From positions 1 to 41,374 of the forward strand of contig JAIECJ010000012.1 in assembly GCA_029068555.1 (NCBI GenBank): a stretch of 41,374 bases of DNA, written 5' to 3'. The position numbers and the translations under genes are program-made. Below the pieces are notes generated by a model. The model made no database searches, was not told the DNA's origin, and saw nothing but the letters and a program-made list of their open reading frames with translations. Source of the stretch: Lachnospiraceae bacterium (GTDB lineage Bacteria; Bacillota; Clostridia; Lachnospirales; Lachnospiraceae). Shown here piece after piece: positions 3,656-38,098 of this stretch; position 1 is the stretch's first letter, and each line of letters starts with the position of its first letter.

Positions 3656-6600
3656 TTATGCTGATTTATTATTTGTACTTTCTTTTTTATTGTTACCAGA
3701 GGTATTTTTTGAATGTTTTTTCTTGTTTGGCGTAACGTTCTTTGTTGTATTTTCAGTCTGATGCAGGTTCTGCTGCTTTGCTGTGTTTTTCTCAGCTTCC
3801 ATCGCCTGGTTCAGGTTTTTCTGAGCTGTGGAGAGCATCAGCTTGATACGGTTAAGCTGGTTAACCTCGGAAGCGCCCGGATCATAGTCAATGGCAACAA
3901 TATTTGCTTCAGGATGGCGTTTGCGGAGTTCTTTGATAACCCCCTTGCCAACTACATGGTTTGGCAGACAGCCAAAGGGCTGCGTACATACAATATTTGG
4001 CGTACCAGTATGAATCAATTCAAGCATTTCGCCAGTCAGGAACCAGCCTTCTCCTGTCTGGTTGCCAATAGATACAATTTCTTCTGCACTCTTTGCTGTT
4101 TCGTAGATATCAGCGGGTGGAATAAAGTGTTTGCTTGCAGCAAATGCTTCACTCATTGGTTTTCGAAGCATCTGGATTGCCTTAATGCCAAGTCTGCTGA
4201 TATCAGCGGCTTTCTTGCTGGTACCAAGATTATCTGCTTTGTACAACTGGTTGTAAAAGCAATAGAACATAAAATCCATCAAATCAGGTACGACTGCTTC
4301 TGCGCCCTCATGTTCAAGGAGTTCTACAAGCTGATTGTTTGCGGCCGGAGAGAATTTTACCAGAATCTCACCGACGACACCGACGCGTGGCTTTTTAATA
4401 TCAAGAACAGGGATAGCGTCAAATTCCGCAATCATTTCACGACACATTTTTTTGTAAGTATGAAATGACATATATTTACGGCCAAGGAAGTCACAGCATT
4501 TTTGAATCCATTTCTGATGCACTTCGTTTACGGAACCAGGAACAGCTTCGTAGGGGCGCATCCGGTATACACAGCGCATAAAGATATCACCAAAATTGAC
4601 GGCATATACTGCGCGGAGCAAAAGCATCGGCGTGAGTTTAAAGCCTGGATTGCTTTCCAGCTTTGAAAGATTAATTGAAATTACCGGAATATGCTGGTAA
4701 CCTGCCTTTTCCAGTGCGCGCCGGATAAATCCAATATAGTTGGTTGCACGGCAGCCGCCTCCTGTCTGTGACATTACGACAGCGAGATGGTCTGTATCGT
4801 ATTTCCCGGAAAGTACAGCTTCCATAATCTGACCGACAACTAGCAGAGACGGATAGCATGCATCATTGTTCACATATTTCAGTCCCATATCAATGCTGCC
4901 CCTGTTGTCATTATTTAAGACCACCAGGTTGTATCCACATCTTCGGAATGTCGGCTCTAAGAGGTCAAAATGTATCGGTGACATCTGTGGACACAGAATA
5001 GTATAATTTTTGCGCATCTCTTTTGTGAAGAGTACCCTGTTCATGCGGCTGGACTGTATGGTGCGTTCCTGATGACGCTGTTCGCGCACACGGATGGCGG
5101 AGAGCAGGGAACGGATGCGGATTCTTGCAGCGCCAAGGTTGTTCACTTCGTCAATTTTCAGGCAGGTATAAATCTTTCCAGAGCCAGTCAGAATATCATT
5201 TACCTGGTCAGTGGTGACGGCGTCCAGACCACATCCAAAAGAGTTGAGCTGGATCAAATCCAGATCGTCACGTGTTTTGACATAGCTTGCAGCGGCGTAA
5301 AGCCTGGAATGGTACATCCACTGGTCTGATACGATAAGGGGACGTTCGGGCTTTGCAAGGTGTGATATGGAATCCTCTGTAAGGACTGCAATACCATAGG
5401 AAGTAATTAACTCAGGAATACCATGGTTGATTTCGGGATCAATGTGGTAAGGGCGACCTGCAAGCACAATACCGCGTGTATGATTCTTTTCAAGGTATTC
5501 AATAACTTCCTCGCCTTTTCTGCACATATCCCTGCGCACATTGTCAAGCTCCTCCCATGCCGTATCCACAGCATCCCTTAACTCTGCAGAAGGGATGTCA
5601 GGAAACTCTTTTTCAAGCGCTTGCAGGATAAGTGACGGTTCCCTGAATGACATAAAAGGATTTTTGAATACAACTTCACCGCGGCCGATTGCCTCCACAT
5701 TATTTTTGATGTTTTCAGAGTAGGAGGTAACGATAGGGCAGTTGTAATGATTGTTTGCCTCATCAAACTCATTTCGTTCATAGAACAGCGCAGGGTAAAA
5801 GATAAAGTCAACCTTCTGCTGAATCAGCCATTCTACATGCCCGTGTGCAAGCTTTGCGGGATAGCATTCTGATTCACTGGGGATGGATTCAATACCCATC
5901 TCGTAAATCTTTCTGTTAGACAAAGGAGAGAGGACTACCTGATATTTCAGCTTTGTGAACAGAGTAAACCAAAACGGATAATTTTCATACATATTCAATA
6001 CTCTTGGAATACCGACGCGTCCGCGTACTGCCTCTGTGTCAGAGAGCGGTTCATAGGTGAATACGCGCTTTAACTTGTATTCAAAAAGGTTTGGAATCGA
6101 GCTGTCAGTCTTTGCCTTTCCAAGTCCACGCTCACAGCGGTTTCCGGATATGTAGCTTCTGCCGTCAGAGAACTTGTTGACTGTCAGGCGGCAGGAGTTT
6201 GTGCAGCCCTGACACTTTACAAGCGATGTGGTAAAGGCAAGCTCGTTAATCTGGTCAATTGTAAGCATGGTTGTCGCATTTTCCGGGGCAGCCTGATATC
6301 GTTCCCTTGCGATAAGGGCAGCGCCAAACGCCCCCATGATACCAGCAATATCAGGTCTGATAACTTCGCAGCTGGCAATTTTCTCAAAACTGCGAAGGAC
6401 TGCATCGTTATAAAAAGTACCGCCCTGTACGACGATATTTTTTCCGAGTTCACTTGCGTCAGACACCTTGATGACCTTGAATAGAGCATTCTTGATGACA
6501 GAGTAAGCAAGACCAGCAGAGATATCGGATACCTCCGCGCCTTCTTTTTGTGCCTGTTTTACTTTTGAATTCATAAAAACGGTACAGCGTGTACCAAGGT

Positions 6601-23992: not shown

Positions 23993-24742
23993 ATGGGCTT
24001 GTCCGTGAGACTGGAAGTATTTGAGGGACCATTGGATCTGTTACTTTATTTGATTGAAAAAAATAAGATAGATATCTATGATATACCCATTGTGGTTATC
24101 ACGGAACAGTATCTGGACTATATCCGGAATATGCAGACAGAGGACATGAACGTCATGAGCGAGTTTCTCGTGATGGCAGCGACGCTTCTTGACATTAAAT
24201 GCAGAATGCTCCTCCCAAGGGAAGTCAATGAGGAAGGGGAGGAAGAAGATCCAAGGGCGGAGCTGGTACAGAAGCTCCTTGAGTATAAGATGTATAAGTA
24301 TATGGCACTTGAACTTCGCGATAAGCAGGTGGATGCGGCTAAGAGCTGGTTTAAAAAACCCATGCTGCCCAGGGAGGTTATGGACTACCAATATCCCATA
24401 GACTACGAGGAACTTGCAGGTGATGTTGATCTGACAAAGCTGCATGAGATATTCAAATCTGTCATGAGGCGTCAGGAGGATAAGATTGACCCAATTAGAA
24501 GCCAGTTTGGAAAGATTGAGAAAGATGAAATCAACCTGGAGGAAAAGCAGGGGTACATAGAAGAGTATGTCAAAAATCACAGGCGATTCAGTTTTCGGAG
24601 TCTCTTGGAAAAGCAGGGAAGCAAGATGGAGGTCATCGTTACATTTATGGCGATACTGGAAATGATGAAGCAGGGTATTATCTCGATTGAACAGGAGGAA
24701 ACTTTTGCAGATATTATTATCACGTCGAGCCTTGCAGCATAA
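23993..24742 (+). CDS. scpA: Segregation and condensation protein A
   Basis: 249-residue kleisin subunit of the bacterial SMC condensin. The N-terminal SMC-neck-binding domain is clear (LEVFEGPLDLLLYLIEKNKIDIYDIP), followed by ITEQYLDYI, and the C-terminal winged helix (VTFMAILEMMKQGIISIEQEE) contacts the SMC head. Middle residues 75-190 are acidic and variable, as usual. Length is normal. GGGGG at 23981-23985 is its ribosome site, embedded in a hairpin. scpB follows 26 bases later. Confidence 0.97.
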   Translation: MGLSVRLEVFEGPLDLLLYLIEKNKIDIYDIPIVVITEQYLDYIRNMQTEDMNVMSEFLVMAATLLDIKCRMLLPREVNEEGEEEDPRAELVQKLLEYKMYKYMALELRDKQVDAAKSWFKKPMLPREVMDYQYPIDYEELAGDVDLTKLHEIFKSVMRRQEDKIDPIRSQFGKIEKDEINLEEKQGYIEEYVKNHRRFSFRSLLEKQGSKMEVIVTFMAILEMMKQGIISIEQEETFADIIITSSLAA

Positions 24743-24768
24743 TGGATGAATAAAAAGGTAATTAAGAT

Positions 24769-25350
24769 ATGGAAGAAAAAAAGATAATGGCCGTGATAGA
24801 GGCAGTGCTTTTTGCCATGGGTGATTCAGTGGAGATATCAAGATTGAATCATGTACTTGAGATATCAGAAAAGGAAATTCGGGAAATCATTGCCAAAATG
24901 AATGACAGATACAAAAGACAGGACAGGGGAATTTATATTGCAGAGCTTGAGGATGCAGTGCAGTTGTGCACAAAGCCTGAGCTGTATGAGTATCTGATTA
25001 AGGTGGCAAAAGCGCCTAGAAAATATGTTTTATCGGATACACTGCTGGAAACACTTTCCATTATTGCATACAAGCAGCCAGTGACAAGACTTGAGGTTGA
25101 AAAAATACGAGGAGTGAGTTGTGATCACGCAGTGAATCGCCTTCTTGAATTTAATCTGATACAGGAGCTTGGCAGACTTGATGCGCCAGGGCGTCCATTG
25201 CTCTTTGGTACTACAGAGGAGTTTCTGCGAACGTTTGGCGTCAAGTCGTTAGGGGATCTTCCTATATTGAATCCGGAGCAGATAGAGGATTTCCGTAAAC
25301 AGGCAGAGGAGGAGGCTGGCGAGATGCCAGAATTGAAAGTGGAGATTTAG
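24769..25350 (+). CDS. scpB: Segregation and condensation protein B
   Basis: 193-residue partner of ScpA with two winged-helix domains. Typical segments are IEAVLFAMGDSVEISRLN at the start, LSDTLLETLSIIAYKQPVTRLEVEKIRGVSCDHAVNRLLE in the second domain, and GRPLLFGTTEEFLRTFGVKSLGDLP near the end. With ScpA and SMC it organises newly replicated origins. The stop codon at 25348-25350 touches a GTG of the next gene, so the downstream regulator may be read from the same transcript. Confidence 0.97.
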   Translation: MEEKKIMAVIEAVLFAMGDSVEISRLNHVLEISEKEIREIIAKMNDRYKRQDRGIYIAELEDAVQLCTKPELYEYLIKVAKAPRKYVLSDTLLETLSIIAYKQPVTRLEVEKIRGVSCDHAVNRLLEFNLIQELGRLDAPGRPLLFGTTEEFLRTFGVKSLGDLPILNPEQIEDFRKQAEEEAGEMPELKVEI

Positions 25351-25382: not shown

Positions 25383-26315
25383 ATGACATATGAAAATGGA
25401 GAAATGATGACAGATGGCAGTGTGGCGGGGAAAATACTGGATTCAGCTATTGAAATTATAAATCGTGAAGGATATGAAAACCTTACTATCCGCAGGGTAG
25501 CAAAAGAAAGCGGATGCTCCAATTCAGCAATTTACCAGCAGTTTAAGGACAAGAATGCATTGGCAGGGGCAGTAGCAGCGCTACAGGCTAAGCCTTTTCT
25601 TTCTATAATGGATGATGCATATGTAAAGGAGGCGGCTTTTTGTGTCAATTTTGAGAAAATTACGGGAAAGCTGCTTGAGAAGCTGTATTCTTTCGAACCG
25701 GAGGAGATTCATATGCAGGTGGTTTATCATGGTAATCTTGGTCTGAGTGAAAATCCGTTTGTGCTGCAGATAGAGAAGTATTTGAAAAATGCCATGGCTC
25801 GCGGTGAGATTGAAGTGAAAGATACAAGAGAAACAGCATTTTTGCTTTTGGCTTCTTTCTGGGGGTTAGTTCAAATGCTGCAGGGAGATAGGGGCTGCGA
25901 TGTAGATGAGGCAAAGAAGCTTTTGCAGGCGCAGAACCGAATGTTGTACAGGGGAATTTGTGCTGCAAAGGACGAAAATTTGTTGTGGGACAGGCTAAGG
26001 GAAACGGGCGTGGAAGTGGATAAGGCACTGGAACGCATGAAAGGAAATAAGAAAGCGTACAAGTGTTTTTTGAAAGAATATTTTGAAGACCCTGATTTTG
26101 TAAGTCTGGAAAAAGAAATCCGTGCTGGAAATGCGAGGAGTGCATTTGAATATGCACATGGGCTAAAAGGAATTGCGGCGAATCTCGGACTTGACGGGGT
26201 GCGGAATAAACTTGGTATTCTTGTGGAAATTTTACGTGCCGGTGGAGTGGAAGGTGCACTGGAGACGTATTATGATGTAATGGAAGCATGTAGTGTGGTG
26301 ACCATGCTGTTATAG
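25383..26315 (+). CDS. TetR-type DNA-binding domain fused to a C-terminal Hpt phosphotransfer domain
   Basis: 310 residues from the ATG at 25383, set by AAGGGGG 6 bases upstream; a GTG at 25350 touching the scpB stop is a longer alternative. Residues 16-62 are a TetR helix-turn-helix (ILDSAIEIINREGYENLTIR, then AIYQQFKDKNAL), followed by a helical ligand/dimer domain to about 195. Residues about 225-310 are a histidine phosphotransfer domain: EDPDFVSLEKEIRAGNARSA, then the signature AHGLKGIAANLGL with H259 as the predicted phosphorylated residue. TetR proteins normally end after the ligand domain; joining one to Hpt implies DNA binding controlled by a phosphorelay, or a branch that passes phosphate to the receiver encoded 49 bases downstream. 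Both domain calls are clear from sequence; the mechanism is inferred. Confidence 0.88.
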   Translation: MTYENGEMMTDGSVAGKILDSAIEIINREGYENLTIRRVAKESGCSNSAIYQQFKDKNALAGAVAALQAKPFLSIMDDAYVKEAAFCVNFEKITGKLLEKLYSFEPEEIHMQVVYHGNLGLSENPFVLQIEKYLKNAMARGEIEVKDTRETAFLLLASFWGLVQMLQGDRGCDVDEAKKLLQAQNRMLYRGICAAKDENLLWDRLRETGVEVDKALERMKGNKKAYKCFLKEYFEDPDFVSLEKEIRAGNARSAFEYAHGLKGIAANLGLDGVRNKLGILVEILRAGGVEGALETYYDVMEACSVVTMLL

Positions 26316-26364
26316 ATAGCGACAGCTGGGTGCCGCGTGGTTACTGGAATGGAGTAAGTAAAAG

Positions 26365-26778
26365 GTGGAGAAAAAAAGCAAAATACTTGTGGTAGATGAT
26401 AAGGGAATTGACCGATATATGCTGGGCTGTATTTTTCGGGAAAAATATGAAGTTGTGGAAGCATCCGGGGGACAGGAGGCAATCAAATTAATAACAGGAT
26501 TATCAGATGTACTTTCAATAGTTCTGCTTGATATTGTTATGCCTGAGGTAGATGGTTTCGATGTGCTTGAGTATATGAAGAAAAAAGAGATCCTGAGCAC
26601 CCTTCCGGTGGTAATTGTCACAGATGATGATTCGGAGGAGACAACCATCAGAGCATTTGAGTATAATGTAGCAGATATCGTGATAAAGCCATATGAGCCA
26701 AGAATTATTAAAAGACGGGTAGAAAATATTATAGAACTGTACATATATAAAAGAAAGGAACGTCTGTATGGGGGTTAA
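26365..26778 (+). CDS. Stand-alone response-regulator receiver
   Basis: 137 residues from a GTG start preceded by GGAG. It is a complete receiver with D11/D12, phospho-acceptor D56 (LLDIVMP), T86 (VIVTDDDS) and K108 (VIKPYEP), and only a short basic tail after it; no DNA-binding or enzymatic output. It lies 49 bases after the TetR-Hpt gene and overlaps the uridine kinase gene by 11 bases. The likely partner is the adjacent Hpt domain (as phosphate donor or acceptor). Single-domain receivers often act as phosphate shuttles or bind a target protein directly. Confidence 0.92.
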   Translation: MEKKSKILVVDDKGIDRYMLGCIFREKYEVVEASGGQEAIKLITGLSDVLSIVLLDIVMPEVDGFDVLEYMKKKEILSTLPVVIVTDDDSEETTIRAFEYNVADIVIKPYEPRIIKRRVENIIELYIYKRKERLYGG

Positions 26779-27487: not shown

Positions 27488-29293
27488 ATGAAAAGAAAGC
27501 ATGAGCTGTTTGGATTTTTGCGCAAATCCGGTATACGCAGACAGCTGTATACCATATATATACTTGCCGTATTTCTGCCTGTAATATTAATCGGTATCTT
27601 TCTGGTAAGCAATACCTATAAGCTGCTGACAAGTTATCACAGGGATTTACTTGAGTCGGATAATCTTCGTGTGAGAACAATACTTTTTGAGATAACAACC
27701 CAGGCTTATAATATTTCTGAAGAACTGTCTTTTAATGAGGAGGTGCTTTCTGTCCTGAAAGGAAAGTATCTTTCAGAGGAAGACTTTGTTGGCATGGTGA
27801 ATGCACATTCCTCTATGGTTGACAATTACATGTATCATTATACAGAAATTGAAAAGATAGACATCTACTGTGATAATCCTGATATATACGCATATAAGCA
27901 GTATCACGGTGTAGATAGTACAGTTGCAGAAACAGACTGGTATCAGAGGGCAGTATCGCAAAACAGCGTGTTTTGGAAAGAAATAGAGAATATCGACGAA
28001 CATAACAACCGATATTGGGGCCTGTGTCTGGTAAGGAGAATTCCGCTTGTTAACTCCAGGCATAATGCCGTTCTTGTGATACGTATCAGTGATAATTACC
28101 TGAAAACGCGTATCAATAGCCAGGAATACCGAAATAGTGTGTCGGTTGATAAGGGTGTTGTGTTTTATGCATCAGACAGGGAGGACTATGGCAAGACGCA
28201 ATTGATTGATATTGATTATGATGAAAATTATTTTCAATACATAGGGAGTAAAAAGATAAAAAATCATACTTGTTTTGTCGGCGTGTCTACACTTCGCCTG
28301 TATCAGTCTGATTCAAGGATTTATATTTGCACAATCAATGACAAATCGTATGATAATATCAGGAGTATTATTGAGACCTGCCTGGTTATAATTATGCTGG
28401 CAATACTGGTTCCCGGTGTTCTGATACATTTTTTTACCATATACTTTACAGGGCGCGTGTCAACGCTTCGGCATGTGATGCATCAGGCAAGTAATGAGGA
28501 TTATGATTTTGAGGAGATTGTCCGTGGCGGTGATGAACTTTCAGAAGCATTTGCAGACCTTGAAGTCATGGTGCAGAGAATCAAGGAAAAAGATGCGCTT
28601 ATGTACAAGACAATGCTGAATGAGCAGGAGCTTGTCAATGAGCAGCAGAAAATGGAATTTAAGATGCTTGCAAGCCAGATTAATCCGCACTTTCTGTATA
28701 ATACGCTGGAAACGATACGCATGAAGGCATATACGGCAGGTGACAAAGAAGTTGCAACTACCATAAAACTTTTGGGAAAATCTATGCGGTATGTGCTGGA
28801 AAACAATGGTACAGCTTTTACATCCCTCCAGAACGAGCTGAATCATATAGAAATATACATGAAGATCCAGAAACTCCGGTTTGGTGAAAAGTTTGACTAT
28901 ACATTTGTGATTGATGATGGCATTGATATAAGCAAATGTATTACACTTCCGCTTTTGTTACAGCCCATTGTTGAAAACGCAGTTCTGCATGGTTTGGAAG
29001 AAAAAGAGACGGGTGGGATGGTTACACTTAGAATCAGCCATGCGGTTAAAAGTGGGATTTGTATCGCGGTGTCTGACAATGGCTGTGGAATGAAGCAGGA
29101 GACATTGGCGCGTCTGCGGGCGGATATTGTGACAAGAAATCCTGACAAAAAGGAGAGCATTGGGTTATATAATATTAACCAGAGGGTAAAACTCTGTTAT
29201 GGAAATGAGTATGGGTTGTCGATTGATTCTGTGCGCGATAAGGGGACAACAATCGCATTGCATTTACCGCAAAAAGTGTATCATGATATTTAA
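27488..29293 (+). CDS. YesM-type (LytS/His_kinase family) sensor histidine kinase
   Basis: 601 residues. Transmembrane helix 1 (about 19-42), an extracellular sensing region to about 295 with a Cache-like composition, helix 2 (CLVIIMLAILVPGVLIHFFT), then a HAMP-like linker. The cytoplasmic kinase is of the His_kinase type: H401 in INPHFLYNTLE, then PLLLQPIVENAVLHGLEE (N box), SDNGCGM (G1) and GLYNINQRVKLCYG. Such kinases pair with YesN-type AraC regulators to control carbohydrate uptake; the matching regulator is at 34626-36209, beyond the transporter genes. AAGGGG precedes the ATG. A strong terminator follows, so the ABC operon has separate transcription. Confidence 0.94.
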   Translation: MKRKHELFGFLRKSGIRRQLYTIYILAVFLPVILIGIFLVSNTYKLLTSYHRDLLESDNLRVRTILFEITTQAYNISEELSFNEEVLSVLKGKYLSEEDFVGMVNAHSSMVDNYMYHYTEIEKIDIYCDNPDIYAYKQYHGVDSTVAETDWYQRAVSQNSVFWKEIENIDEHNNRYWGLCLVRRIPLVNSRHNAVLVIRISDNYLKTRINSQEYRNSVSVDKGVVFYASDREDYGKTQLIDIDYDENYFQYIGSKKIKNHTCFVGVSTLRLYQSDSRIYICTINDKSYDNIRSIIETCLVIIMLAILVPGVLIHFFTIYFTGRVSTLRHVMHQASNEDYDFEEIVRGGDELSEAFADLEVMVQRIKEKDALMYKTMLNEQELVNEQQKMEFKMLASQINPHFLYNTLETIRMKAYTAGDKEVATTIKLLGKSMRYVLENNGTAFTSLQNELNHIEIYMKIQKLRFGEKFDYTFVIDDGIDISKCITLPLLLQPIVENAVLHGLEEKETGGMVTLRISHAVKSGICIAVSDNGCGMKQETLARLRADIVTRNPDKKESIGLYNINQRVKLCYGNEYGLSIDSVRDKGTTIALHLPQKVYHDI

Positions 29294-29322
29294 AAGTGCT
29301 GTGTAACGCAGCGCTTTTTTTT
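29292..29322 (+). terminator. Intrinsic terminator after the sensor kinase
   Basis: AAAAGTGCTGTG (29292-29303), loop TAA, CGCAGCGCTTTT (29307-29318), two G-U pairs, then TTTT. The stem overlaps the stop codon. Confidence 0.88.
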
Positions 29323-29352
29323 ATGCATACAGTCACTTAGTGCAGTGAAAAT

Positions 29353-29407
29353 TGTCAGCAGGAACTGACAGGTCTGCGCAGAGGAAGTATGTCGCTTAAG
29401 CGGCGCA
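29353..29407 (+). other. Structured segment upstream of the sugar ABC operon
   Basis: Two neighbouring folds: TGTCAG (29353-29358) with CTGACA (29365-29370), and TGCGC (29375-29379) with GCGCA (29403-29407) enclosing the perfect palindrome CGCTTAAGCG (29393-29402). It does not match a riboswitch consensus I know. It lies upstream of the likely operon promoter, so it is more likely an extragenic palindrome than a leader. Confidence 0.4.
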
Positions 29408-29485
29408 CGGAGATTGTAAAAATTAAATATGCATAAAAAAAGTGATGTAAATTGTAATTAATTTTTTCAGTATTTTTACATAAAT

Positions 29486-29520
29486 TTAACCATTATAATA
29501 AAGTTATCACAAATGGTTGT
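29486..29520 (+). promoter_or_regulatory. Promoter region of the sugar ABC operon with flanking inverted repeat
   Basis: A perfect TATAAT at 29494-29499 lacks a good -35, typical of an activator-dependent promoter. AACCATT (29488-29494) and AATGGTT (29512-29518) form an inverted repeat overlapping the -10 and the expected start point. The YesN-type AraC regulator encoded at 34626-36209 is the obvious candidate regulator. Confidence 0.45.
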
Positions 29521-29552
29521 GAAGGAATAAATAACAGGAAGGAAGTAGAGAT

Positions 29553-30989
29553 ATGAGTAAGGAAAAGATTGCAGATAAGCTGTATGTCGTGCTGAGAGTA
29601 TTCTATATTCTGGCGTTCGTGCTGCTGTTTATCCCAGCGCTGAATCCTGCGAGAATCAGTGAACTGATTCCACAGACGGCTTCCGTGTTCACTTGCGGCA
29701 CCTCATATGGCACCTTGACGCAGAATTTTGCCAGAGCATTTAGCAGAGGCTGGGTTGGTACACTGACACTGCAGATGGTATTTGGCGGCTGCCTGTGTAT
29801 CATCCTTGGATTTGTGGCGGCGGGAGCTGGCGGTTGTATGTCACTTGGCACTACTAAATTGAAAAAAATCGGTATGATACCGTCAATTATTGGTGCAGTA
29901 GTGGCATTTGCAGGATGTATGATGATTAACTGGGCGGCTACGGATATCAAGGGAACACCAAAGCCGGACAGAATTAACCCGATGGATCCCCAAAATCTCA
30001 CATTCTATATTATTTTGTGTGTGGCAATGCTTGTATTATCCATTGTGATTTTCTTCTGCCTGCCTAAGGTGGAAAAGGATGAGAAATGTTATATTGAGAC
30101 AAAGTATCAGTTGTTTCTGCTGCTTCTGCCGTTTTTGGCGCTTTGCATTGTGTTTGCTTATCTGCCGTTGCTTGGATGGCGGTATGCGTTCTTTGACTAC
30201 AAGTCAGGCGATACGTTGTCGATGGACAATTTTGTTGGTCTGAAATGGTTTTCGTTTTTATTTCAGAATGAGGCGACAAGGGCTGATCTGGTGCGTGTAC
30301 TGAGAAATACTCTTGCGATGAGTGGACTTGGTCTTGCCACAAGCTGGTGCTCCATGGCATTTGCAATTCTGTTATGTGAGATTAAGAGTTTGAAATTTAG
30401 AAGATTTGTTCAAACGTTTACGACGATTCCAAACTTCATCAGCTGGGTGCTTGTATATGCTGTTGCATTTGCTATTTTCTCGACGGATGGATTTGTAAGC
30501 TCGCTGCTGGTAAATGCAGGAACAATGGAGACTGGTACAAACTTTCTGATGGATAACTCCCATATGTGGATTAAAATGCTTGCATGGGGGATGTGGAAAG
30601 GTTTAGGATGGAATGCCATTATTTACATAGCGGCAATCTCAGGTATTGACCAGCAGCTCTATGAGGCGGCTTCTATTGATGGTGCAGGGCGTTTCCAGAA
30701 AATGTGGAATATTACGGTTCCGAGTCTGGTTCCGACCTTTATGGTACTGCTGATTATGGCAATTGCCGGTATTTTAAGCAATGGTATGGATCAGTATCTC
30801 GTATTTGAGACACCATACAACACAGATACCATTACAGTGTTAGACCTCTATGTATACAAACTTGGTATCAATGGCGGCAGGGTTCCATTGGCAACTGTAG
30901 TAGGTATGTTTAAGTCAATCGTCAGCGTTGTTCTACTCTTTGGGGCAAATAAGATTTCAAAGACAGTACGCGGCGAGAGCATCATGTAA
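29553..30989 (+). CDS. Carbohydrate ABC transporter permease (LplB/UgpA-like) with extra N-terminal membrane region
   Basis: 478 residues, about 150-170 longer than usual for the family. Residues about 15-175 carry four additional hydrophobic segments (around LAFVLLFIPAL, GGCLCIILGFVAAGAGGC, IPSIIGAVVAFAGCMMI and FYIILCVAMLVLSIVIFF) not found in standard LplB-type permeases. From about 188 (YQLFLLLLPFLALCIVFAYLP) the normal six-helix permease begins, with the cytoplasmic EAA loop YEAASIDGAGRFQKMWNITVPSL that contacts the ATPase. It should form the channel with the next permease. AGGAAGG precedes the ATG. First gene of the transport operon. Confidence 0.93.
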   Translation: MSKEKIADKLYVVLRVFYILAFVLLFIPALNPARISELIPQTASVFTCGTSYGTLTQNFARAFSRGWVGTLTLQMVFGGCLCIILGFVAAGAGGCMSLGTTKLKKIGMIPSIIGAVVAFAGCMMINWAATDIKGTPKPDRINPMDPQNLTFYIILCVAMLVLSIVIFFCLPKVEKDEKCYIETKYQLFLLLLPFLALCIVFAYLPLLGWRYAFFDYKSGDTLSMDNFVGLKWFSFLFQNEATRADLVRVLRNTLAMSGLGLATSWCSMAFAILLCEIKSLKFRRFVQTFTTIPNFISWVLVYAVAFAIFSTDGFVSSLLVNAGTMETGTNFLMDNSHMWIKMLAWGMWKGLGWNAIIYIAAISGIDQQLYEAASIDGAGRFQKMWNITVPSLVPTFMVLLIMAIAGILSNGMDQYLVFETPYNTDTITVLDLYVYKLGINGGRVPLATVVGMFKSIVSVVLLFGANKISKTVRGESIM

Positions 30990-31003
30990 GGGAGGTGAAT
31001 GGA

Positions 31004-31972
31004 ATGGCAATGACAAAACAGGAAAAGCTTGACAAAAAGGCAGAGAAGGAATACGAAAAGAAACATCAGAGGCAGTATCGCATGAGTGCCGGCGACTGGG
31101 TTTTTGAGATTATCAACCATGCTTTTTTTCTGATATTTACAATACTTTGTATCTTTCCGTTCTACTATATCTTTATCAATACAATTAGTGATAATGATTT
31201 GGTCAGAAAAGGTGCCATTAACTTTTTGCCACAAGGAATCCATATTCAGAACTATGTTTCCATGTTCAATGTAAATGATGTCGGAACAGCGTTGGTTGTC
31301 ACTGTTGGAAGGACATTTCTCGGAACGGTGCTGATGGTTATGGCTTCTGCGTTTGTGGGATATCTGGTGACAAAGCAGGAGATGTGGTGCAAGAAGATTT
31401 GGTACAGATGCCTGATTATCACAATGTATTTCAATGCAGGTCTGATTCCATGGTACTTGAACATGTCAATGCTGGGGCTGACCAACAGCTTTTGGGCATA
31501 CATCATTCCAGGTATCGTAGCTCCTTACAACATTATCCTTGTAAAGACGTATATCGAGTCGATTCCGGGAGAGCTAGAGGAGAGTGCAAAGATGGATGGT
31601 GCTACTTATATGACCGTGTTTCGAAAAATCATATGGCCGCTTAGCAAGCCAATCCTTGCTACAATCGCAATTTTCGGTGCGGTAGGCAATTGGAACTCGT
31701 TTACGGATTCCTTGATTTTGATGCCGGATGCACCGCAGCTTCATACATTGCAGCACAAGCTGTATACATATCTGAACGCCGCTTCCAACTTAAAGAGTGT
31801 CATGAACTCAGGCGCTGGAACAATATCAGGCGCAGCGGCAGCGAATGTGCTGAATGCCAAGACAATTAAATATACAATATCAATGGTTACTGTACTGCCT
31901 ATCCTGATGGTATATCCGTTTATGCAGAGATATTTTGAAAAGGGTATTATGCTCGGTGCAGTAAAAGGTTAA
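31004..31972 (+). CDS. Carbohydrate ABC transporter permease (YtcP/LplC-like)
   Basis: 322 residues from the ATG at 31004, with GGAGGTG 6 bases before it; a GTG at 30995 lies inside that ribosome site. The N-terminus is highly charged (KQEKLDKKAEKEYEKKHQRQ), then six hydrophobic segments follow, with the EAA loop LEESAKMDGATYMTVFRKIIWPLSKP. It is the second half of the importer channel. No ATPase gene is present in the window, so a shared MsmX-like ATPase encoded elsewhere is expected. It starts 15 bases after the first permease. Confidence 0.94.
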   Translation: MAMTKQEKLDKKAEKEYEKKHQRQYRMSAGDWVFEIINHAFFLIFTILCIFPFYYIFINTISDNDLVRKGAINFLPQGIHIQNYVSMFNVNDVGTALVVTVGRTFLGTVLMVMASAFVGYLVTKQEMWCKKIWYRCLIITMYFNAGLIPWYLNMSMLGLTNSFWAYIIPGIVAPYNIILVKTYIESIPGELEESAKMDGATYMTVFRKIIWPLSKPILATIAIFGAVGNWNSFTDSLILMPDAPQLHTLQHKLYTYLNAASNLKSVMNSGAGTISGAAAANVLNAKTIKYTISMVTVLPILMVYPFMQRYFEKGIMLGAVKG

Positions 31973-32042
31973 GACATTGGTGTTACGGTACCATACAAAC
32001 TGGTATTTTATATAACACGTAAAAGGAAAAGGAGGATTATTT

Positions 32043-33875
32043 ATGAAATTCAAAAAAGTACTATCACTCGTACTCATATCTGCAATGACATGTTCACTTG
32101 CGGCATGTAGTGGTTCGACAACGACGACCTCGCAGAACAATGCAGATACCGTAACAGATAATACAGACACGGACAAGGCAGCAGACGCAGACAATGCGGC
32201 TGAACCAGGTACGGCAGCTGGAACAGCTGATGCAGACACAACAGACGGGGATGTTAAGGAAGCGGATTTGTCAGATATCATTCCTGATGAGACTGTGACG
32301 CTTACGGTTTACTCACAGCTTTCCAACTATGAAGGCGAGCAGATCGGATGGTTTGCTGATATCATGAAAGAGAAGTTTAATGTGAAGCTGAATATTATCA
32401 GTAATGGTGACGGTGTATTTGATACACGTATGGAATCAGGAAATCTTGGTGACATCGTGCTTTTTGGCTCTGACGGTGACGAGTATACACGTGCATATCA
32501 GAATGGCATGCTTTTCGACTGGAATGAGGATGATATCTTGTCCGATTATGGTCCATATATCAAGTCCCATATGGCGGATGCGCTTGACAAGAATGCCGCG
32601 ATATCGGATGGAACAGTATACGGGTTTGGATTTGATGTGGCTTCTGGTGCTGGACAGTACGGTGAGTTTGACTATCATCCGGATATTCGTTATGACCTTT
32701 ATAAGCAGATTGGAAGCCCGGAAATCAATGAGTTAGAGGATTATGTCGATGTACTCAAGCAGATGAAAGAAGCCTGCCCGACATCTGATTCCGGAAAGGA
32801 AACATATGGCGTTTCCCTCTTTAAGGACTGGGATGGCAATATGGTAATGTTTGTGAAAGCGACGGCAACAAATTTCTTTGGATTGGATGAGTTCCAGTTT
32901 GGTTTCTATGACGCAGACACAGGCGCGTTCGAAGACTGCTTACAGGAAGGCGGGCATTATGAGAGATGCCTGAAGTTCTACAATACATTGTATCAGCAGG
33001 GGTTGTTGGATCCGGACTCTATGACACAGGGGTATGACGGATGTATGGAGGACTATCAGGACGGCGGTGCATTTTTCTGTATCTTTAACTGGATGGGCGC
33101 TACACAGTACAACACAAATGAGCATATGGCTGAAGGCAAGAAACTTCTTCCTGTTGCGGCTAAAAATCAGGACACTTTAGTTTATGGCCTGGGACAGAGT
33201 GGAAGCAATCGTATTTGGTCGATTGGTGCGAAGTCGCAGTATCCGGAACTTTGTATGGCAATCATTAATTACCTCTGCACGCCAGAAGGAAGGCTTGACT
33301 ATGAGTATGGTCCTCAAGGCGTATGCTGGGAGTGGCTTGATAATGGCAAGGCGGAATTGACAGACTTTGGTCTGGACTGCAAGGCACTTGCAGCAAGGGA
33401 AGACAAGGTAATGCCGGCGCCGTATTCAGGACTTTGGGATGACGGCTGTCCGCAGATGAACAACACGACATGGTCACTTAATACAACAATTCCTGATGGT
33501 GTTGACGGTCAGACATTCAATTTCAAGTACTGGGATAAGTATCTTTCGCTGGATGTTGACAAGGCAGAGCAGGAGTGGAGAGCAGATATGGGTGTAGATT
33601 CCTACACAGAATATATGACACAGTTTGATTATTCTATTTCCCTTCCACACAGCTATGCAGAGAGCATAAAGTCAGATGAGCTTGCCACAACATGGGAGCA
33701 GGTAAAGACATGTATCCAGAATGGTTCATGGCAGGCAATCTACGCAAAAGATGATTCCGAATTTGAGTCTATCGTTGCGAAGATGCGTGCAGATGCTGAC
33801 AGCTACGGTTATCAGGAGTGCATCGAGTGGTGCGAGAATGAAGCGGCTCTTAGAAAGGCAGCAGAGTACGAATAA
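32043..33875 (+). CDS. Extracellular solute-binding lipoprotein of the sugar importer
   Basis: 610 residues. The lipoprotein signal ends LAAC with C22 lipidated, followed by a long T/D/A-rich linker (about 23-75) that holds the binding domain away from the membrane. The remainder is a large family 1-type binding protein: TLTVYSQLSNYEGEQIGWFA at the domain start and RYDLYKQIGSPEINELEDYV further on. AAGGAGGA gives very strong translation. It follows the permeases after 70 bases containing a small hairpin. A paralogue is encoded at 36359-38098, sharing the GWF, DLYKQ and FFKDWD-type landmarks. The bound sugar is unknown; length and context suggest an oligosaccharide. Confidence 0.94.
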   Translation: MKFKKVLSLVLISAMTCSLAACSGSTTTTSQNNADTVTDNTDTDKAADADNAAEPGTAAGTADADTTDGDVKEADLSDIIPDETVTLTVYSQLSNYEGEQIGWFADIMKEKFNVKLNIISNGDGVFDTRMESGNLGDIVLFGSDGDEYTRAYQNGMLFDWNEDDILSDYGPYIKSHMADALDKNAAISDGTVYGFGFDVASGAGQYGEFDYHPDIRYDLYKQIGSPEINELEDYVDVLKQMKEACPTSDSGKETYGVSLFKDWDGNMVMFVKATATNFFGLDEFQFGFYDADTGAFEDCLQEGGHYERCLKFYNTLYQQGLLDPDSMTQGYDGCMEDYQDGGAFFCIFNWMGATQYNTNEHMAEGKKLLPVAAKNQDTLVYGLGQSGSNRIWSIGAKSQYPELCMAIINYLCTPEGRLDYEYGPQGVCWEWLDNGKAELTDFGLDCKALAAREDKVMPAPYSGLWDDGCPQMNNTTWSLNTTIPDGVDGQTFNFKYWDKYLSLDVDKAEQEWRADMGVDSYTEYMTQFDYSISLPHSYAESIKSDELATTWEQVKTCIQNGSWQAIYAKDDSEFESIVAKMRADADSYGYQECIEWCENEAALRKAAEYE

Positions 33876-33900
33876 GATTCATATTTTGAATGATAAATTT

Positions 33901-33929
33901 ATGGGGCTGTCAGTAACTGATAGCCCCAT
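33901..33929 (+). terminator. Hairpin between the binding protein and YesL-like genes
   Basis: ATGGGGCTGTCAG (33901-33913), loop TAA, CTGATAGCCCCAT (33917-33929), one G-U pair. The following U-tract is short, so it probably terminates partially and protects the abundant binding-protein mRNA. Confidence 0.65.
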
Positions 33930-33950
33930 TTCTGAATAAGGAGTTTTGGA

Positions 33951-34577
33951 ATGAGTGGATTTTTTAGTATTGATGGCGGATTGTATCGCTTTCTTAGCAA
34001 GTTCTGGGATTTGGTCAAGTTAAATTTTATGTGGCTTTTATTTTCGCTGCCCATCGTCACGATTGGCGCGTCGACAGTTGCAGCTTACAGTGTTGCAATG
34101 AAGATGGTTGATGATGAGGAGGGCTATGTTGCGAGAAGCTTCGTCAGAGCGTTCAGGGCAAATTTAAAACAGGGTACGGTTATGGGGCTGATATTCCTTG
34201 TGGCGACTTATGCCATCTATCTTGACTATGAAATTAACCGAGTGTCCGAGGAAGGTTCCATCATACTGATTGTAGTTGGAATTGTATCAGCATTTGTATA
34301 TGTGACGGCCATGCTGTATGCATTCCCGCTTCTTGCCCGATACGAAAACGGCATTGTCGCAACGATACAGAATTCAATGGAGATTTCAAGAAGATATTTT
34401 GGCAGGACATTGATGATAGCAGCGTTGCTATTTGCCGAGTATGTGATATTTCATTTCAATACGGTTTTGATGTGCTTTGGGCTGTTGTTTGGTGCAGCGT
34501 TTGCGATTTTTACAGTCGCAGCATTTTCCAAGAGAATTTTTCAGGAAATAGAGAAAGAACCGGGGGCGGTAAGATAA
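33951..34577 (+). CDS. YesL-family (DUF624) membrane protein
   Basis: 208 residues with about five hydrophobic helices. It matches the YesL family: an N-terminal GLYRFLSKFWDLVKLNFMWLLFSLPIVTIGAST, then FVRAFRANLKQGTVMGL. These proteins are commonly encoded with YesM/YesN and sugar ABC genes; their exact role is unproven. AAGGAG lies 9 bases before the ATG. The stop codon lies inside the loop of the operon terminator. Confidence 0.9.
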   Translation: MSGFFSIDGGLYRFLSKFWDLVKLNFMWLLFSLPIVTIGASTVAAYSVAMKMVDDEEGYVARSFVRAFRANLKQGTVMGLIFLVATYAIYLDYEINRVSEEGSIILIVVGIVSAFVYVTAMLYAFPLLARYENGIVATIQNSMEISRRYFGRTLMIAALLFAEYVIFHFNTVLMCFGLLFGAAFAIFTVAAFSKRIFQEIEKEPGAVR

Positions 34578-34591
34578 TCCTCCGGTTCTTT
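34554..34591 (+). terminator. Terminator of the sugar ABC operon
   Basis: AAAGAACCGGGGG (34554-34566) pairs with CCTCCGGTTCTTT (34579-34591), 13 bp with one G-U pair; the YesL-like stop codon is in the loop. The A/T end gives a U-rich 3' side. Confidence 0.8.
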
Positions 34592-34600
34592 GCTATAACA

Positions 34601-34628
34601 TGGGCACCCATAGGAAAAGCTTTTCCTA
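34601..34628 (-). terminator. Palindromes at the 3' end of the YesN-type gene
   Basis: TAGGAAAAGCTTTTCCTA (34611-34628) is a perfect 18-bp palindrome including the minus-strand stop codon, followed by TGGG and CCCA (34601-34610). They lie between convergent genes and may terminate minus-strand transcription; the zero-loop geometry makes this uncertain. Confidence 0.4.
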
Positions 34629-36209
34629 CTCGATTACGGTTTCATCCAGTTTTAACTGCTTGCGGTATTCCGCAGGGCTGATACCAACGTATTTCTTAAA
34701 CTTCTTATGGAAATAGTCTACATTTTTATAGCCCACCTGTTCAGACACTTCATATACTTTCATATTTTTCTGCTCGAGAAGCTTTTTGGAATGCTCAATA
34801 CGCCTATGGTCAACATAGGAGTTGAAGTTTTCCCCGATTGCCTTTGTGAAGAGTTTGCCGAGATATGCGCTGTTGTATCCGAAAAGCGGGGCAATGGTTT
34901 CGAGCTTGATATTGTTCTGGTAATTGTTGTCAATGTAATAAAGGATGTCATCAAGGATAGAATCCCTCGGCGAGCTGTCGTTGCTGTCCATTATGGATTT
35001 TACCTGCCCTGAAATGTATAGAATAATCTCATACAGGTAATGGCAGTTGTCAATGTGGTCTATGATGACAGAGTTGGAGGGGAATGACACGCGTGAACTA
35101 TTGTATATTTTATGTATATTTTCCTTTAGCTGAAGGAAAAGGTCCGTGAGAAAAAGCTTGACGGATTCAATGGAGCTGTCCACATTGTAAAGGTATTCTT
35201 CAAGGGAGAAGAATGTAGAGGCAATCTGTTTACGGTTGTTTGCCTGCAGGTAACTTACCAGGGCATCACAGTATTCGTGAAGTTTGTCGTCATGGATCTG
35301 TCTGTTGTGTGAGGTTACGGCGGGCAGTTCTTCATATCCCAGTGTATGCTGACCCTGAATACAGAAAAAGCGTCTCTTTATCAATGTATAGGCTTCCTCA
35401 TAAGAGAGGTAGATTTCATCAAGGTTTTCGACTGGGCGGCCATATGCGAGAAAGAGAGAGTCCATAGGGCTTCCTGCCTGAAACTCTGCCTTTTCATAGT
35501 GGCGCAGAAATTCTTCAAACCGCCTGAGCGCAAAGGATCCTTTTAACAAAATCACATTTTTATTGTTCTCCTCAAAGTGCTCAAAGGAGTGATTTCCGCT
35601 GTTGGTAATATTTAGCAGATCAGCAAAATGATAGCTTTTGTCTTCAGGAGACAAACCGAATTTTTCATAAATCACAACCTGATAGACATCAAAGACAAGC
35701 TCCATGCTTTGGAAGTCTGTGGAGGAGAGACTTGTTATGCCATCTTTCTTCCAGATACCAGTGACCAGTTCGTGAAGAATCACATTTTTGGCTTTTTTGC
35801 GGTAAAGTGCAATATTATCCGATTCTTTGTGCTCCTGTTCCAGACTCTCCTTTATCGTGTTGATGGCATCCAGCAGTTCGTCCTCGTCGATTGGTTTCGT
35901 CAGATAATACTCCACGCCGTAACGGATGGCAGCCTGCGCATAAGAAAAGTCGGAGTACCCGCTCAGGATGATAAACCTGCCGTTATAACCCTGCTCGCGC
36001 GCAATCCGGATGATGTCGATACCAGTAAGCTTCGGCATACGGATGTCCAAAAGAACAAGGCTGGGCTTGTCTTTTAAGATGCAGGAGAGCGCTTCCTCGC
36101 CATTTGCTGCTTCACCGCATAAAGTAAAGCCGAGTTTTTCCCAGTCGAGAATGCATTTGAGCCCATCGCGTATATTTTTTTCATCGTCGGCTATCAATAA
36201 AGTTTCCAT
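34626..36209 (-). CDS. YesN-type response regulator with AraC DNA-binding domain
   Basis: 527 residues from the ATG at 36209 (GGGG 6 bases before); a TTG one codon upstream is rejected. Receiver at 1-120 with D8/D9, phospho-acceptor D55 (LLDIRMP) and K105 (YYLTKP). The middle (about 125-410) is the variable YesN linker domain. The C-terminal AraC/XylS double helix-turn-helix covers about 425-525, including APLFGYNSAYLGKLFTKAIG and VSEQVGYKNVDYFHKKFKKY, ending VGISPAEYRKQ. It is the natural partner of the YesM-type kinase at 27488-29293 and probably activates the two binding-protein/transport units. It is convergent with the ABC operon and divergent from the second binding protein. Confidence 0.96.
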   Translation of the reverse strand: METLLIADDEKNIRDGLKCILDWEKLGFTLCGEAANGEEALSCILKDKPSLVLLDIRMPKLTGIDIIRIAREQGYNGRFIILSGYSDFSYAQAAIRYGVEYYLTKPIDEDELLDAINTIKESLEQEHKESDNIALYRKKAKNVILHELVTGIWKKDGITSLSSTDFQSMELVFDVYQVVIYEKFGLSPEDKSYHFADLLNITNSGNHSFEHFEENNKNVILLKGSFALRRFEEFLRHYEKAEFQAGSPMDSLFLAYGRPVENLDEIYLSYEEAYTLIKRRFFCIQGQHTLGYEELPAVTSHNRQIHDDKLHEYCDALVSYLQANNRKQIASTFFSLEEYLYNVDSSIESVKLFLTDLFLQLKENIHKIYNSSRVSFPSNSVIIDHIDNCHYLYEIILYISGQVKSIMDSNDSSPRDSILDDILYYIDNNYQNNIKLETIAPLFGYNSAYLGKLFTKAIGENFNSYVDHRRIEHSKKLLEQKNMKVYEVSEQVGYKNVDYFHKKFKKYVGISPAEYRKQLKLDETVIE

Positions 36210-36245
36210 CAAATTCCCCGCTCCCTATATGTAATATATATTGAA

Positions 36246-36279
36246 TTGTTCCATAAATTTGATATAGTATAATTATAAT
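36246..36279 (+). promoter_or_regulatory. Promoter region for the second binding lipoprotein
   Basis: TTGTTC (36246-36251), 16-base spacer, TATAAT (36268-36273), with a second TATAAT at 36274-36279. The gap 36210-36358 between divergent genes is very A/T-rich and presumably contains sites for the adjacent AraC-type regulator. Confidence 0.5.
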
Positions 36280-36358
36280 AAAAAATAGTTTTTAAATGTT
36301 TAATAATAGTATAAGTGAGTAAAATAGGATTGTCAATCCAGGAAGAGAGTGGTTGAAA

Positions 36359-38098
36359 ATGAATAAAAAACAACGATACCGAATTACGTCAATTTGTCTT
36401 TTGGTGGTATGCTGTTTGAATTTCTCCGGTTGTGCCGGCATGAGGGGAAATGCTGGCTATCTGACAGCGCTGAATGCAAACGATTGTCCATATAAGGAAT
36501 TTATTGTCGTGGATGTATTTGATTTTTCTGCGAATTATCAAGGAATTCAGTCAGGATGGTTTGGGGAAGTAGTCAGAAAGAAGTTTAATATGGAATTGAA
36601 TATTATAGCGCCCAATATGACCAAAGGCGGGGACACTCTTTTTGAAGTGCGCGTAGCAGCAGGTAACCTGGGTGACCTTATCATATGCAAAGGCGTGAAT
36701 GGCCAGTTGCAGGAACTGGTAAATGCAGGGCTGATATACAACATGGAAGATGAATTGCAGGGAAAAAATATTATGCGTTATCAGGATGCAATTGAGAATC
36801 TAAATAGTAGTGTAGAACAAGACGGGATCTACGCAATTCCGTCTCAAGTGTCGGCCAATGGATTCGATGTGCCGAGTGAGGGAGTTGAACCTGTATATGG
36901 ACCTTATATCCGCTGGGATTTGTATAAACAGCTGGGATATCCTGAGGTAGATACATTAGAAGACCTTCTGCCTGTGTTAAAACAGATGCAGGAGCGATAT
37001 CCGGCTGCGGAAAATGGTGCAAAAACCTATGGTTTTTCTTTTTTTAAGGACTGGGATGACAACATGATGAACGCAATCAAACAGCCCTGCTGCATGTATG
37101 GATATGATGAATATGGAGTGGTGCTTGCAAAGGCGGATGGATCAGACTACCAGAGTATTATTGAGGATGACTCAGTATATGTGCGTATGTTGAAGTTTTT
37201 CTATGAGGCAAATCAAATGGGACTGATTGATCCGAAGTCGGCAAATCAAAACTATGATCAGTGCTTCGAAAAGTATAGGGATGGGCAGATTTTTTTCTCG
37301 CCCTGGCCGTGGCTTGGGAAATCCGCCTTCAATACAATTTCCAACGTGGAGCAGGGTAAGGGGTTTATGGTGGCGCCTGTCAAGGATATGCAGATTTATT
37401 CATATGGGTGTTATCCATATGGAAACCAGAACAGTATCATAGCAGTCGGTTCGCAGTCTGCGGATCCAGAGAGGCTTGTGGATTTTATTGACTGGCTTTA
37501 CTCTGAAGAGGGCATCATGTTAAACGGAGCCAGTCTCTCCGGGGCCGCAGCAGGACCTGAGGGACTGACATGGGAAATGAAAGAAGATGGTCCCAGCCTT
37601 ACGGATTTTGGCAGAGAAGCTTTACTAAATGGAGGTGAAGTTGAAATGCCGGCGGAATATGGCGGAGGAACATGGGAATCAGGAATTTCAGCACTGAATT
37701 ATAAGGCTGTGGTACAGTGCGAAAAAAATGATAGAGGATTTCACTATTATTATGAACTATGGGACAGTGTGAGGGCGCTTGACACATCTGTGCTTGTCGA
37801 AGACTGGAGGAAAAAAATGAATGCAGATACTACGATGGAGTATCTGGAGAAAAACGATATGCTCCTGGTTGCGCCGGGAATGCTGTATACTGCTTCAGTG
37901 GAGACGGCGGAACAGACAGCGATACGCTACCAGTGCAAACGTGCAATACAAAATTATTCGTGGGAAATGGTGTTTGCTCCTGACAGTCAGCGTTTTGAAG
38001 AACTTTTGGACGAGATGCAGGCGACAGTCAAAAGTTATGGATATGATGTGATTTTGGAATATGACATGACACATGCGAAAATAAAAAGTCAGTTCTGA
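36359..38098 (+). CDS. Second extracellular solute-binding lipoprotein
   Basis: 579 residues from the ATG at 36359, behind GGAAGAGAG; a TTG two codons earlier is less likely. The lipoprotein signal ends FSGC with C25 lipidated. It is clearly paralogous to the product of 32043-33875: both contain GWF followed by an [FI]xxKFN-type segment, DLYKQ[LI]G, LKQM and F[FK]KDWD, and a similar C-terminal layout (EDWRKKMNADTTMEYL against QEWRADMGVDSYTEYM). It lacks the long T/D-rich linker of the first. It is transcribed away from the YesN-type gene with its own promoter. It may feed the same permeases a different sugar or act as a sensor subunit; both are inference. Confidence 0.93.
   Translation: MNKKQRYRITSICLLVVCCLNFSGCAGMRGNAGYLTALNANDCPYKEFIVVDVFDFSANYQGIQSGWFGEVVRKKFNMELNIIAPNMTKGGDTLFEVRVAAGNLGDLIICKGVNGQLQELVNAGLIYNMEDELQGKNIMRYQDAIENLNSSVEQDGIYAIPSQVSANGFDVPSEGVEPVYGPYIRWDLYKQLGYPEVDTLEDLLPVLKQMQERYPAAENGAKTYGFSFFKDWDDNMMNAIKQPCCMYGYDEYGVVLAKADGSDYQSIIEDDSVYVRMLKFFYEANQMGLIDPKSANQNYDQCFEKYRDGQIFFSPWPWLGKSAFNTISNVEQGKGFMVAPVKDMQIYSYGCYPYGNQNSIIAVGSQSADPERLVDFIDWLYSEEGIMLNGASLSGAAAGPEGLTWEMKEDGPSLTDFGREALLNGGEVEMPAEYGGGTWESGISALNYKAVVQCEKNDRGFHYYYELWDSVRALDTSVLVEDWRKKMNADTTMEYLEKNDMLLVAPGMLYTASVETAEQTAIRYQCKRAIQNYSWEMVFAPDSQRFEELLDEMQATVKSYGYDVILEYDMTHAKIKSQF

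Follow-up and report, generated by a model that had tools for sequence, protein, structure and literature searches.

A TetR-Hpt fusion co-inherited with a single-domain receiver in one genus of Lachnospiraceae: a putative phosphorelay-controlled repressor

TetR proteins are a model of one-component regulation outside phosphorelays. Repressors of this family such as QacR, Bacillus subtilis FadR/YvdT and KstR have an N-terminal helix-turn-helix, a helical domain and palindromic operators at their promoters. In phosphorelays the output is normally carried by the last receiver, and histidine phosphotransfer (Hpt) proteins such as Pseudomonas aeruginosa HptB, Caulobacter ChpT (by function) and the Lachnospiraceae Hpts encoded beside REC-HD-GYP genes stand alone. 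Phosphorelays leading to small RNAs are known from the Vibrio LuxU-LuxO-Qrr-LuxR pathway, which includes a TetR-type regulator, and from Gac/Rsm, and it is LuxO or GacA that binds DNA in these relays. Single-domain response regulators, either CheY-like or of the MrrA type, consist of a receiver only and are described as acting by protein contact (PMC5964349, PMC12471899). Hybrid kinases borrowing a separate Hpt are likewise described (PMC12471899). According to PMC3018481, most phosphotransfer genes are orphans; for those that are grouped, it describes a unit of response regulator plus phosphotransfer gene.

In a contig of a Lachnospiraceae bacterium (JAIECJ010000012.1; 41,374 nucleotides analysed, hereafter the window), these elements are combined in another manner. 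The protein described here resembles TetR one-component repressors in the features named above, its palindromic operators being presumed, but it is longer by about 110 residues, which form an Hpt domain, and is accompanied by a co-inherited receiver gene; it shares the fold and the histidine of stand-alone Hpts, but here the Hpt bears a DNA-binding output. The receiver, unlike CheY-like proteins and MrrA, occurs where this fusion of Hpt and DNA-binding part occurs, rather than tracking a kinase or a motor, and unlike in the Vibrio and Gac relays, Hpt and TetR lie in one protein, which would bind RNA promoters directly. No description of a TetR-Hpt fusion was found in searches of one open-access library.

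The fusion gene (25383..26315, plus strand, with an alternative GTG start at 25350) encodes 310 residues and stands behind scpA-scpB (23993..25350, plus strand), the upstream genes of a presumed operon, which are fixed neighbours outside the regulatory device itself. The preliminary description had proposed a TetR-type regulator fused to an Hpt domain, and each part of this architecture was recovered. The N-terminal TetR_N helix-turn-helix (residues 18-64, 25434..25574) matches PF00440 with an E-value of 4.5e-12 and a score of 46 bits against a curated cut-off of 24, a cut-off exceeded in all 13 full-length members of the family. Regarding the middle part, helices are predicted to span residues 57-196 (AlphaFold model, pLDDT 86.8), of which residues 86-196 (25638..25970) correspond to the TetR-type helical ligand/dimer domain; the best Foldseek matches are TetR proteins aligned over about 190 columns with TMt values up to 0.80, and the 50 listed matches are, by name or as we take them to be, TetR-type regulators, or an unnamed Rhodococcus protein (3on2). 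A TetR_C family match was obtained in only 1 of 17 members. With a pTM of 0.58, the relative placement of the TetR and Hpt halves in the model is not firm.

The C-terminal residues 199-310 (25977..26312) are predicted to form a helical bundle with the fold of Hpt proteins. Against PF01627 the window protein scores 20.6 bits, or 22.9 when the C-terminal part is taken alone, under the cut-off of 24.6; nevertheless this cut-off is reached by 15 of the 17 aligned members (26.2-34.7 bits), with locus L014 at 23.5. The predicted phosphorylated histidine, H259 (codon 26157..26159), aligns with the histidine of AHSFKG in HptB, and H259-x-x-K262-G263 is invariant in 17/17 aligned members; of the two outcomes named beforehand as speaking against the fusion, a lack of any Hpt profile hit and a histidine not conserved among homologues, neither occurred. 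Both domains of the fusion are real and H259 is conserved.

A spacer of 49 bases (26316..26364) separates the fusion gene from a second gene on the same strand (26365..26778), which encodes a single-domain receiver of 137 residues (PF00072, 1.3e-19). As had been proposed, this receiver is intact: it lacks an output domain and possesses the full set of acidic pair, Asp, Thr and Lys. Indeed, D56, the predicted phosphorylation site (codon 26530..26532), and T86 are present in 14/14 rows of the alignment, and D11, D12 and K108 in every row covering those positions, showing that the active site is conserved. Another receiver of the window is located at the C-terminus (residues 257-366) of a 379-residue open reading frame (24-1163), whose N-terminal part has no Pfam match at E-values up to 1e-4.

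The distribution of these genes was followed in 38 genomes of the genus, 36 of which, including the window's own, were searched directly, while two (G060 and G061) were judged from their scpB loci. The fusion occurs in 14 of them (46-64% identity, one copy being cut by a contig end), and a receiver orthologue (64-72% identity, the next matches reaching at most 48%) occurs in exactly the same 14. The receiver directly follows the fusion in 13; in the remaining genome, G001, the fusion stops at a contig end and the receiver opens another contig, followed by udk. In G018, the receiver is split across two frames. Among the 34 genomes in which scpB was found, 13 have fusion and receiver, 16 have neither, and five (G016, G060, G022, G023 and G061) have the Hpt half alone, directly after scpB and without receiver; in none of these 34 was a TetR half seen without the receiver or a receiver without the TetR half. 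TetR half and receiver are inherited together, and this strict co-inheritance, a check proposed in the preliminary description, supports the functional tie between them. Even in G033, whose ScpB is 97% identical to that of the window, the gene order is scpB-udk-yesM with fusion and receiver both absent; the junction fits a deletion, although its left part is also common to G010, which has neither gene.

Outside the genus, no full-length fusion other than that of the window's own genome was found in samples of the order (392 genomes), the family (397) and the phylum (398), searched with strict E-values and at most five candidates scored per genome; the other matches were to the Hpt half or, in one case, to the TetR half. 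An alignment query against GTDB contigs retrieved 15 loci, all titled Lachnospiraceae, comprising 13 fusions and two lone Hpts, one of them from Lachnospiraceae bacterium A4, while a related-locus search of the same contigs with the single window protein gave no match. In a plasmid collection, the fusion protein retrieved distant stand-alone Hpts only. Among the genomes examined, the full fusion is seen in one genus only.

Since the receiver is lost with the TetR half even where the Hpt stays, it appears to serve the TetR half. Because it accompanies this half, the most likely reading, to which we assign a probability of about one in two, is that the fusion is a TetR-family repressor whose DNA binding is set by a phosphorelay via its own Hpt domain, with the adjacent receiver as dedicated partner. 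In such a scheme, the receiver would dock on the Hpt helix round H259 and either hand phosphate to this histidine or remove it, both directions being conceivable, and phosphorylation or docking would alter DNA binding. The same dependence of the receiver on the TetR half is predicted if the Hpt is a docking platform only, H259 carrying no phosphate and the binding of the phosphorylated receiver alone switching the TetR part; however, H259, K262 and the GLKG and NLGL residues round the histidine are invariant in fused and lone forms alike, as expected for phosphotransfer, and we regard pure docking as quite improbable.

A tree built from ScpA, ScpB and a phosphoesterase of 34 genus members and seven outgroups places the fusion genomes at basal, scattered positions, with weak support (28-74) at several inner nodes. 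A single clade of fusion genomes is rejected (AU p 1.7e-26), and so is a clade uniting every fusion genome with the lone-Hpt ones (p 6e-5). Monophyly of the lone-Hpt genomes is not rejected (AU p 0.50), one and two origins both fitting. The tree of the 112-residue Hpt is unresolved within the genus and does not reject a single fused-Hpt clade (p 0.52). As the fusion genomes do not form a clade, parsimony points to a joint loss of the pair in G033, in the lone-Hpt group or groups and in the clades having neither gene. The reading that fits best is hence that the ancestor of the genus had fusion and receiver and that they were repeatedly lost, TetR half and receiver always together, horizontal transfer being a conceivable alternative history. 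A recent insertion of the fusion into an Hpt-only ancestor is not favoured, given the basal position of the fusion genomes and the rejection of one fusion clade. A TetR protein of G529 that matches the TetR half, considered as pre-fusion partner, proved to be an ordinary TetR of 200 residues beside flavodoxin-like genes, with no adjoining Hpt seen. In the Hpt tree, the lone Hpts beside scpB (L015, L016, L017, L087 and L094) have long branches, which may reflect changed partners.

Stand-alone relatives of the Hpt provide a further view of its past. In 6 of the 14 loci examined, a REC-HD-GYP gene adjoins the Hpt gene or lies within two genes of it. In three loci (L037, L040 and L106), an upstream gene encodes about 710-740 residues with an HATPase-like motif, that of L037 being CheA-like and also containing an Hpt match; L039 has two upstream genes that are HATPase-like and bear receivers. 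Searched with a profile of the window receiver, the six REC-HD-GYP receivers gave E-values of 6e-36 to 3e-45, and the other regulators near the Hpts about 1e-15 to 5e-23; however, L176 and L178, which are single-domain receivers, reach similar values (about 1e-42), and another type of REC-HD-GYP gives about 1e-18 only. With REC-HD-GYP genes near the Hpts and their receivers among the closest relatives of the window's, the Hpt and the receiver type found here appear to be long-standing partners. Unlike these loci, the window has a TetR part on the Hpt and a receiver without output domain.

Four basal genomes (G030, G024, G021 and G001) give the fusion gene its own promoter, TTGACA-17-(A/C)ATAAT, directly followed by two AACnnnGTT dyads 21-22 bp apart (the second dyad of G024 reads GACnnnGTT). 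The strict pattern derived from these promoters occurs at five places in the 38 genomes (about 145 Mb), compared with a chance expectation of 0.2-0.3 under a simple base-composition model; these are the four source sites, by construction, and one site in G014 (contig C63). A relaxed pattern gave 13 rows in six fusion genomes, corresponding to 12 distinct places (with 2 control matches), namely three fusion promoters and nine places elsewhere, and 12/12 sit right after TTGAC and a -10-like box. In the nine non-fusion places and in that of G014, these boxes are spaced as in the fusion promoters, as judged with a loose regular expression. The G014 site is not a chance match but the promoter of a predicted RNA of the target type at the serA locus, in a genome (78% complete) where neither fusion nor scpB was found. 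At the fusion gene itself, the operator pair is absent from the eight derived genomes with readable upstream region, the window's included (that of G018 is cut off), and from basal G011. In the window's group, the fusion gene lies behind scpB with no visible promoter, and the region before scpAB in derived genomes showed no palindrome common to them. An extra AACnnnGTTC dyad is present between the -35 and -10 boxes of the RNA promoter at the serA locus in G021 (L188, 2160-2230) and G014 (L167, near 3449).

The same promoter-operator unit as at the fusion gene stands before ten non-coding transcripts predicted in seven genomes. Of these, one belongs to the window's own genome (L184, G000:C211:1000-12000, from about 5417 down to 5220 on the minus strand, near serA; its promoter is at about 6386-6416 of G000:C211), and the others are found at L185, L186, L187, L188, L189, L190, L191, L192 and L167. 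These predicted transcripts are intergenic, have no conserved open reading frame that could be seen and are rich in GTGTAAAAGG, most of them also in TTGGGG(G)A repeats; GTGTAA is present 1-11 times per stretch compared with 0.1-0.6 in shuffles, and GTGTAAAAGG occurs outside the RNA loci only once in each of three loci (1.25 Mb of loci, duplicates included). The RNA predicted in the window's own genome has a fold z of -5.5 and a 16-pair hairpin at its end. A terminator scan found a sense-direction terminator-like site in one of three RNA loci (G021:C151) and none in G000:C211 or G024:C46. Promoter scans returned an 11-of-12 match at the expected place in 4/4 regions; since promoter-like matches were not rarer in shuffles (1-4 per region compared with 0.9-2.3, near chance in A+T-rich stretches), the weight lies on the shared promoter-operator arrangement. 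Rfam searches of the ten loci at the gathering threshold gave tRNAs only, and a search of plasmid and phage collections with one of the RNAs (G024:C46) returned nothing. A CsrB-like titration through GGA motifs is not claimed, as GGA barely exceeds dinucleotide shuffles. The ten predicted transcripts thus constitute a candidate new small-RNA family. Moreover, the motif GTGTAAAAnGGGAA, a single copy of the RNA repeat, stands directly 5' of the receiver gene in the fusion/receiver spacer of 6 of 13 readable genomes (L003, L004, L005, L007, L009 and L010); it was not found in the window's own spacer.

Because autoregulation is common in TetR proteins and the KstR motif is alike, the TetR-Hpt protein is the predicted binder of these dyads, its dimeric TetR part binding the paired AACnnnGTT operators just after the -10 box of its targets. 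The sites could instead belong to another regulator, for instance of the LytTR type, controlling both the fusion gene and the RNAs, a possibility compatible with the other readings that we hold to be somewhat doubtful. LytTR-type response regulators recognise 9-bp repeats of a period similar to the 20-23 bp seen here, and a site is kept in the window's own genome despite a recognition helix unlike that of the basal proteins (residue 52 is V or M in these and Q in the derived ones, including the window's). However, each site is itself a dyad just after the -10 box, in the position of a repressor, and the TetR-family KstR recognises TnnAACnnGTTnnA (PMC1995591). If the TetR-Hpt protein is the binder, its targets would be the family of short predicted non-coding RNAs and, in basal species, its own gene. 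Points that weigh against this are the lack of the operator at the fusion gene in the window's group and in basal G011, the difference at residue 52 of the recognition helix, and the target-type promoter of G014. The boldest part of the reading is this RNA regulon: a phosphorelay whose DNA-binding output is borne by the Hpt instead of the receiver, in which receiver phosphate would set the state of a TetR repressor directly controlling a multi-copy regulon of GTGTAAAAGG-repeat RNAs without Rfam match, together with its own gene in basal species, and in which the repeat motif of some receiver leaders would feed back on receiver synthesis. Taken as a whole, it is a tentative proposal that we judge unlikely in all its parts at once.

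Regarding the origin of the phosphate, the window's own genome contains 8 Hpt, 33 HisKA and 86 receiver matches, and HisKA and receiver share one reading frame in 12 cases, counted by contig and frame length (C26, C35, C122, C138, C154, C167, C177, C207, C208, C216, C229 and C237). An Hpt match of their own is present in two of these frames (C122 and C154) and missing in 10, which means that orphan hybrid kinases exist in this genome. The preliminary description had named a hybrid kinase encoded elsewhere as a possible phosphate source; such kinases are indeed present, but none of the 12 frames is tied to the TetR-Hpt/receiver pair and no specific donor could be singled out. We infer that a hybrid kinase encoded elsewhere and lacking an Hpt of its own is probably the primary source of phosphate. 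The adjoining YesM-type kinase, considered as donor, is rejected as a linked partner by its distribution across the genus: G033 has the kinase without the pair, in G016 and G060 the kinase stands behind a lone Hpt, and in G002, G034, G030, G024, G021 and G011 it does not adjoin the pair. It is grouped with genes for transport and for a YesN-like regulator (34626-36212). The whole block (27488-38098: YesM kinase, transporter genes, DUF624 protein, solute-binding protein and minus-strand YesN-like AraC regulator) lies between scpB and dacF, and in several genus members dacF directly follows scpB, Hpt, receiver or udk.

The same kinases could be served in another way, the Hpt half being the working part that shuttles phosphate between orphan hybrid kinases and receivers, while the TetR half only sets the amount of fusion and receiver by ligand-sensitive autorepression and phosphate leaves DNA binding unchanged. 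Besides the 10 hybrid frames without Hpt match, the operator at the fusion promoter in four basal genomes suits this explanation, as does the persistence of the Hpt half in five genomes, where it must be of use without the TetR half. Nevertheless, the receiver disappears with the TetR half even where the Hpt stays and, the operator pair being absent from the fusion gene in the eight readable derived genomes, autorepression through it is not the sole role there; we consider this explanation unlikely.

Compared with what had been claimed for this locus, two points are added: versions reduced to the Hpt exist, and a likely operator can be given together with target promoters. Through the promoter-operator unit that these share, the idea of a phosphorelay-controlled repressor becomes testable, since the unit points to DNA targets and to a candidate family of small RNAs in gut Lachnospiraceae, and the five genomes having the Hpt but neither TetR half nor receiver are natural controls. 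The fusion with its co-inherited receiver suggests an unusual wiring, by which a phosphate signalling chain would lead straight to a gene switch. If true, the pairing of a DNA-binding Hpt and a receiver inherited with it would link phosphorelays to one-component regulation and would represent a natural design for phosphate-tunable repressors.
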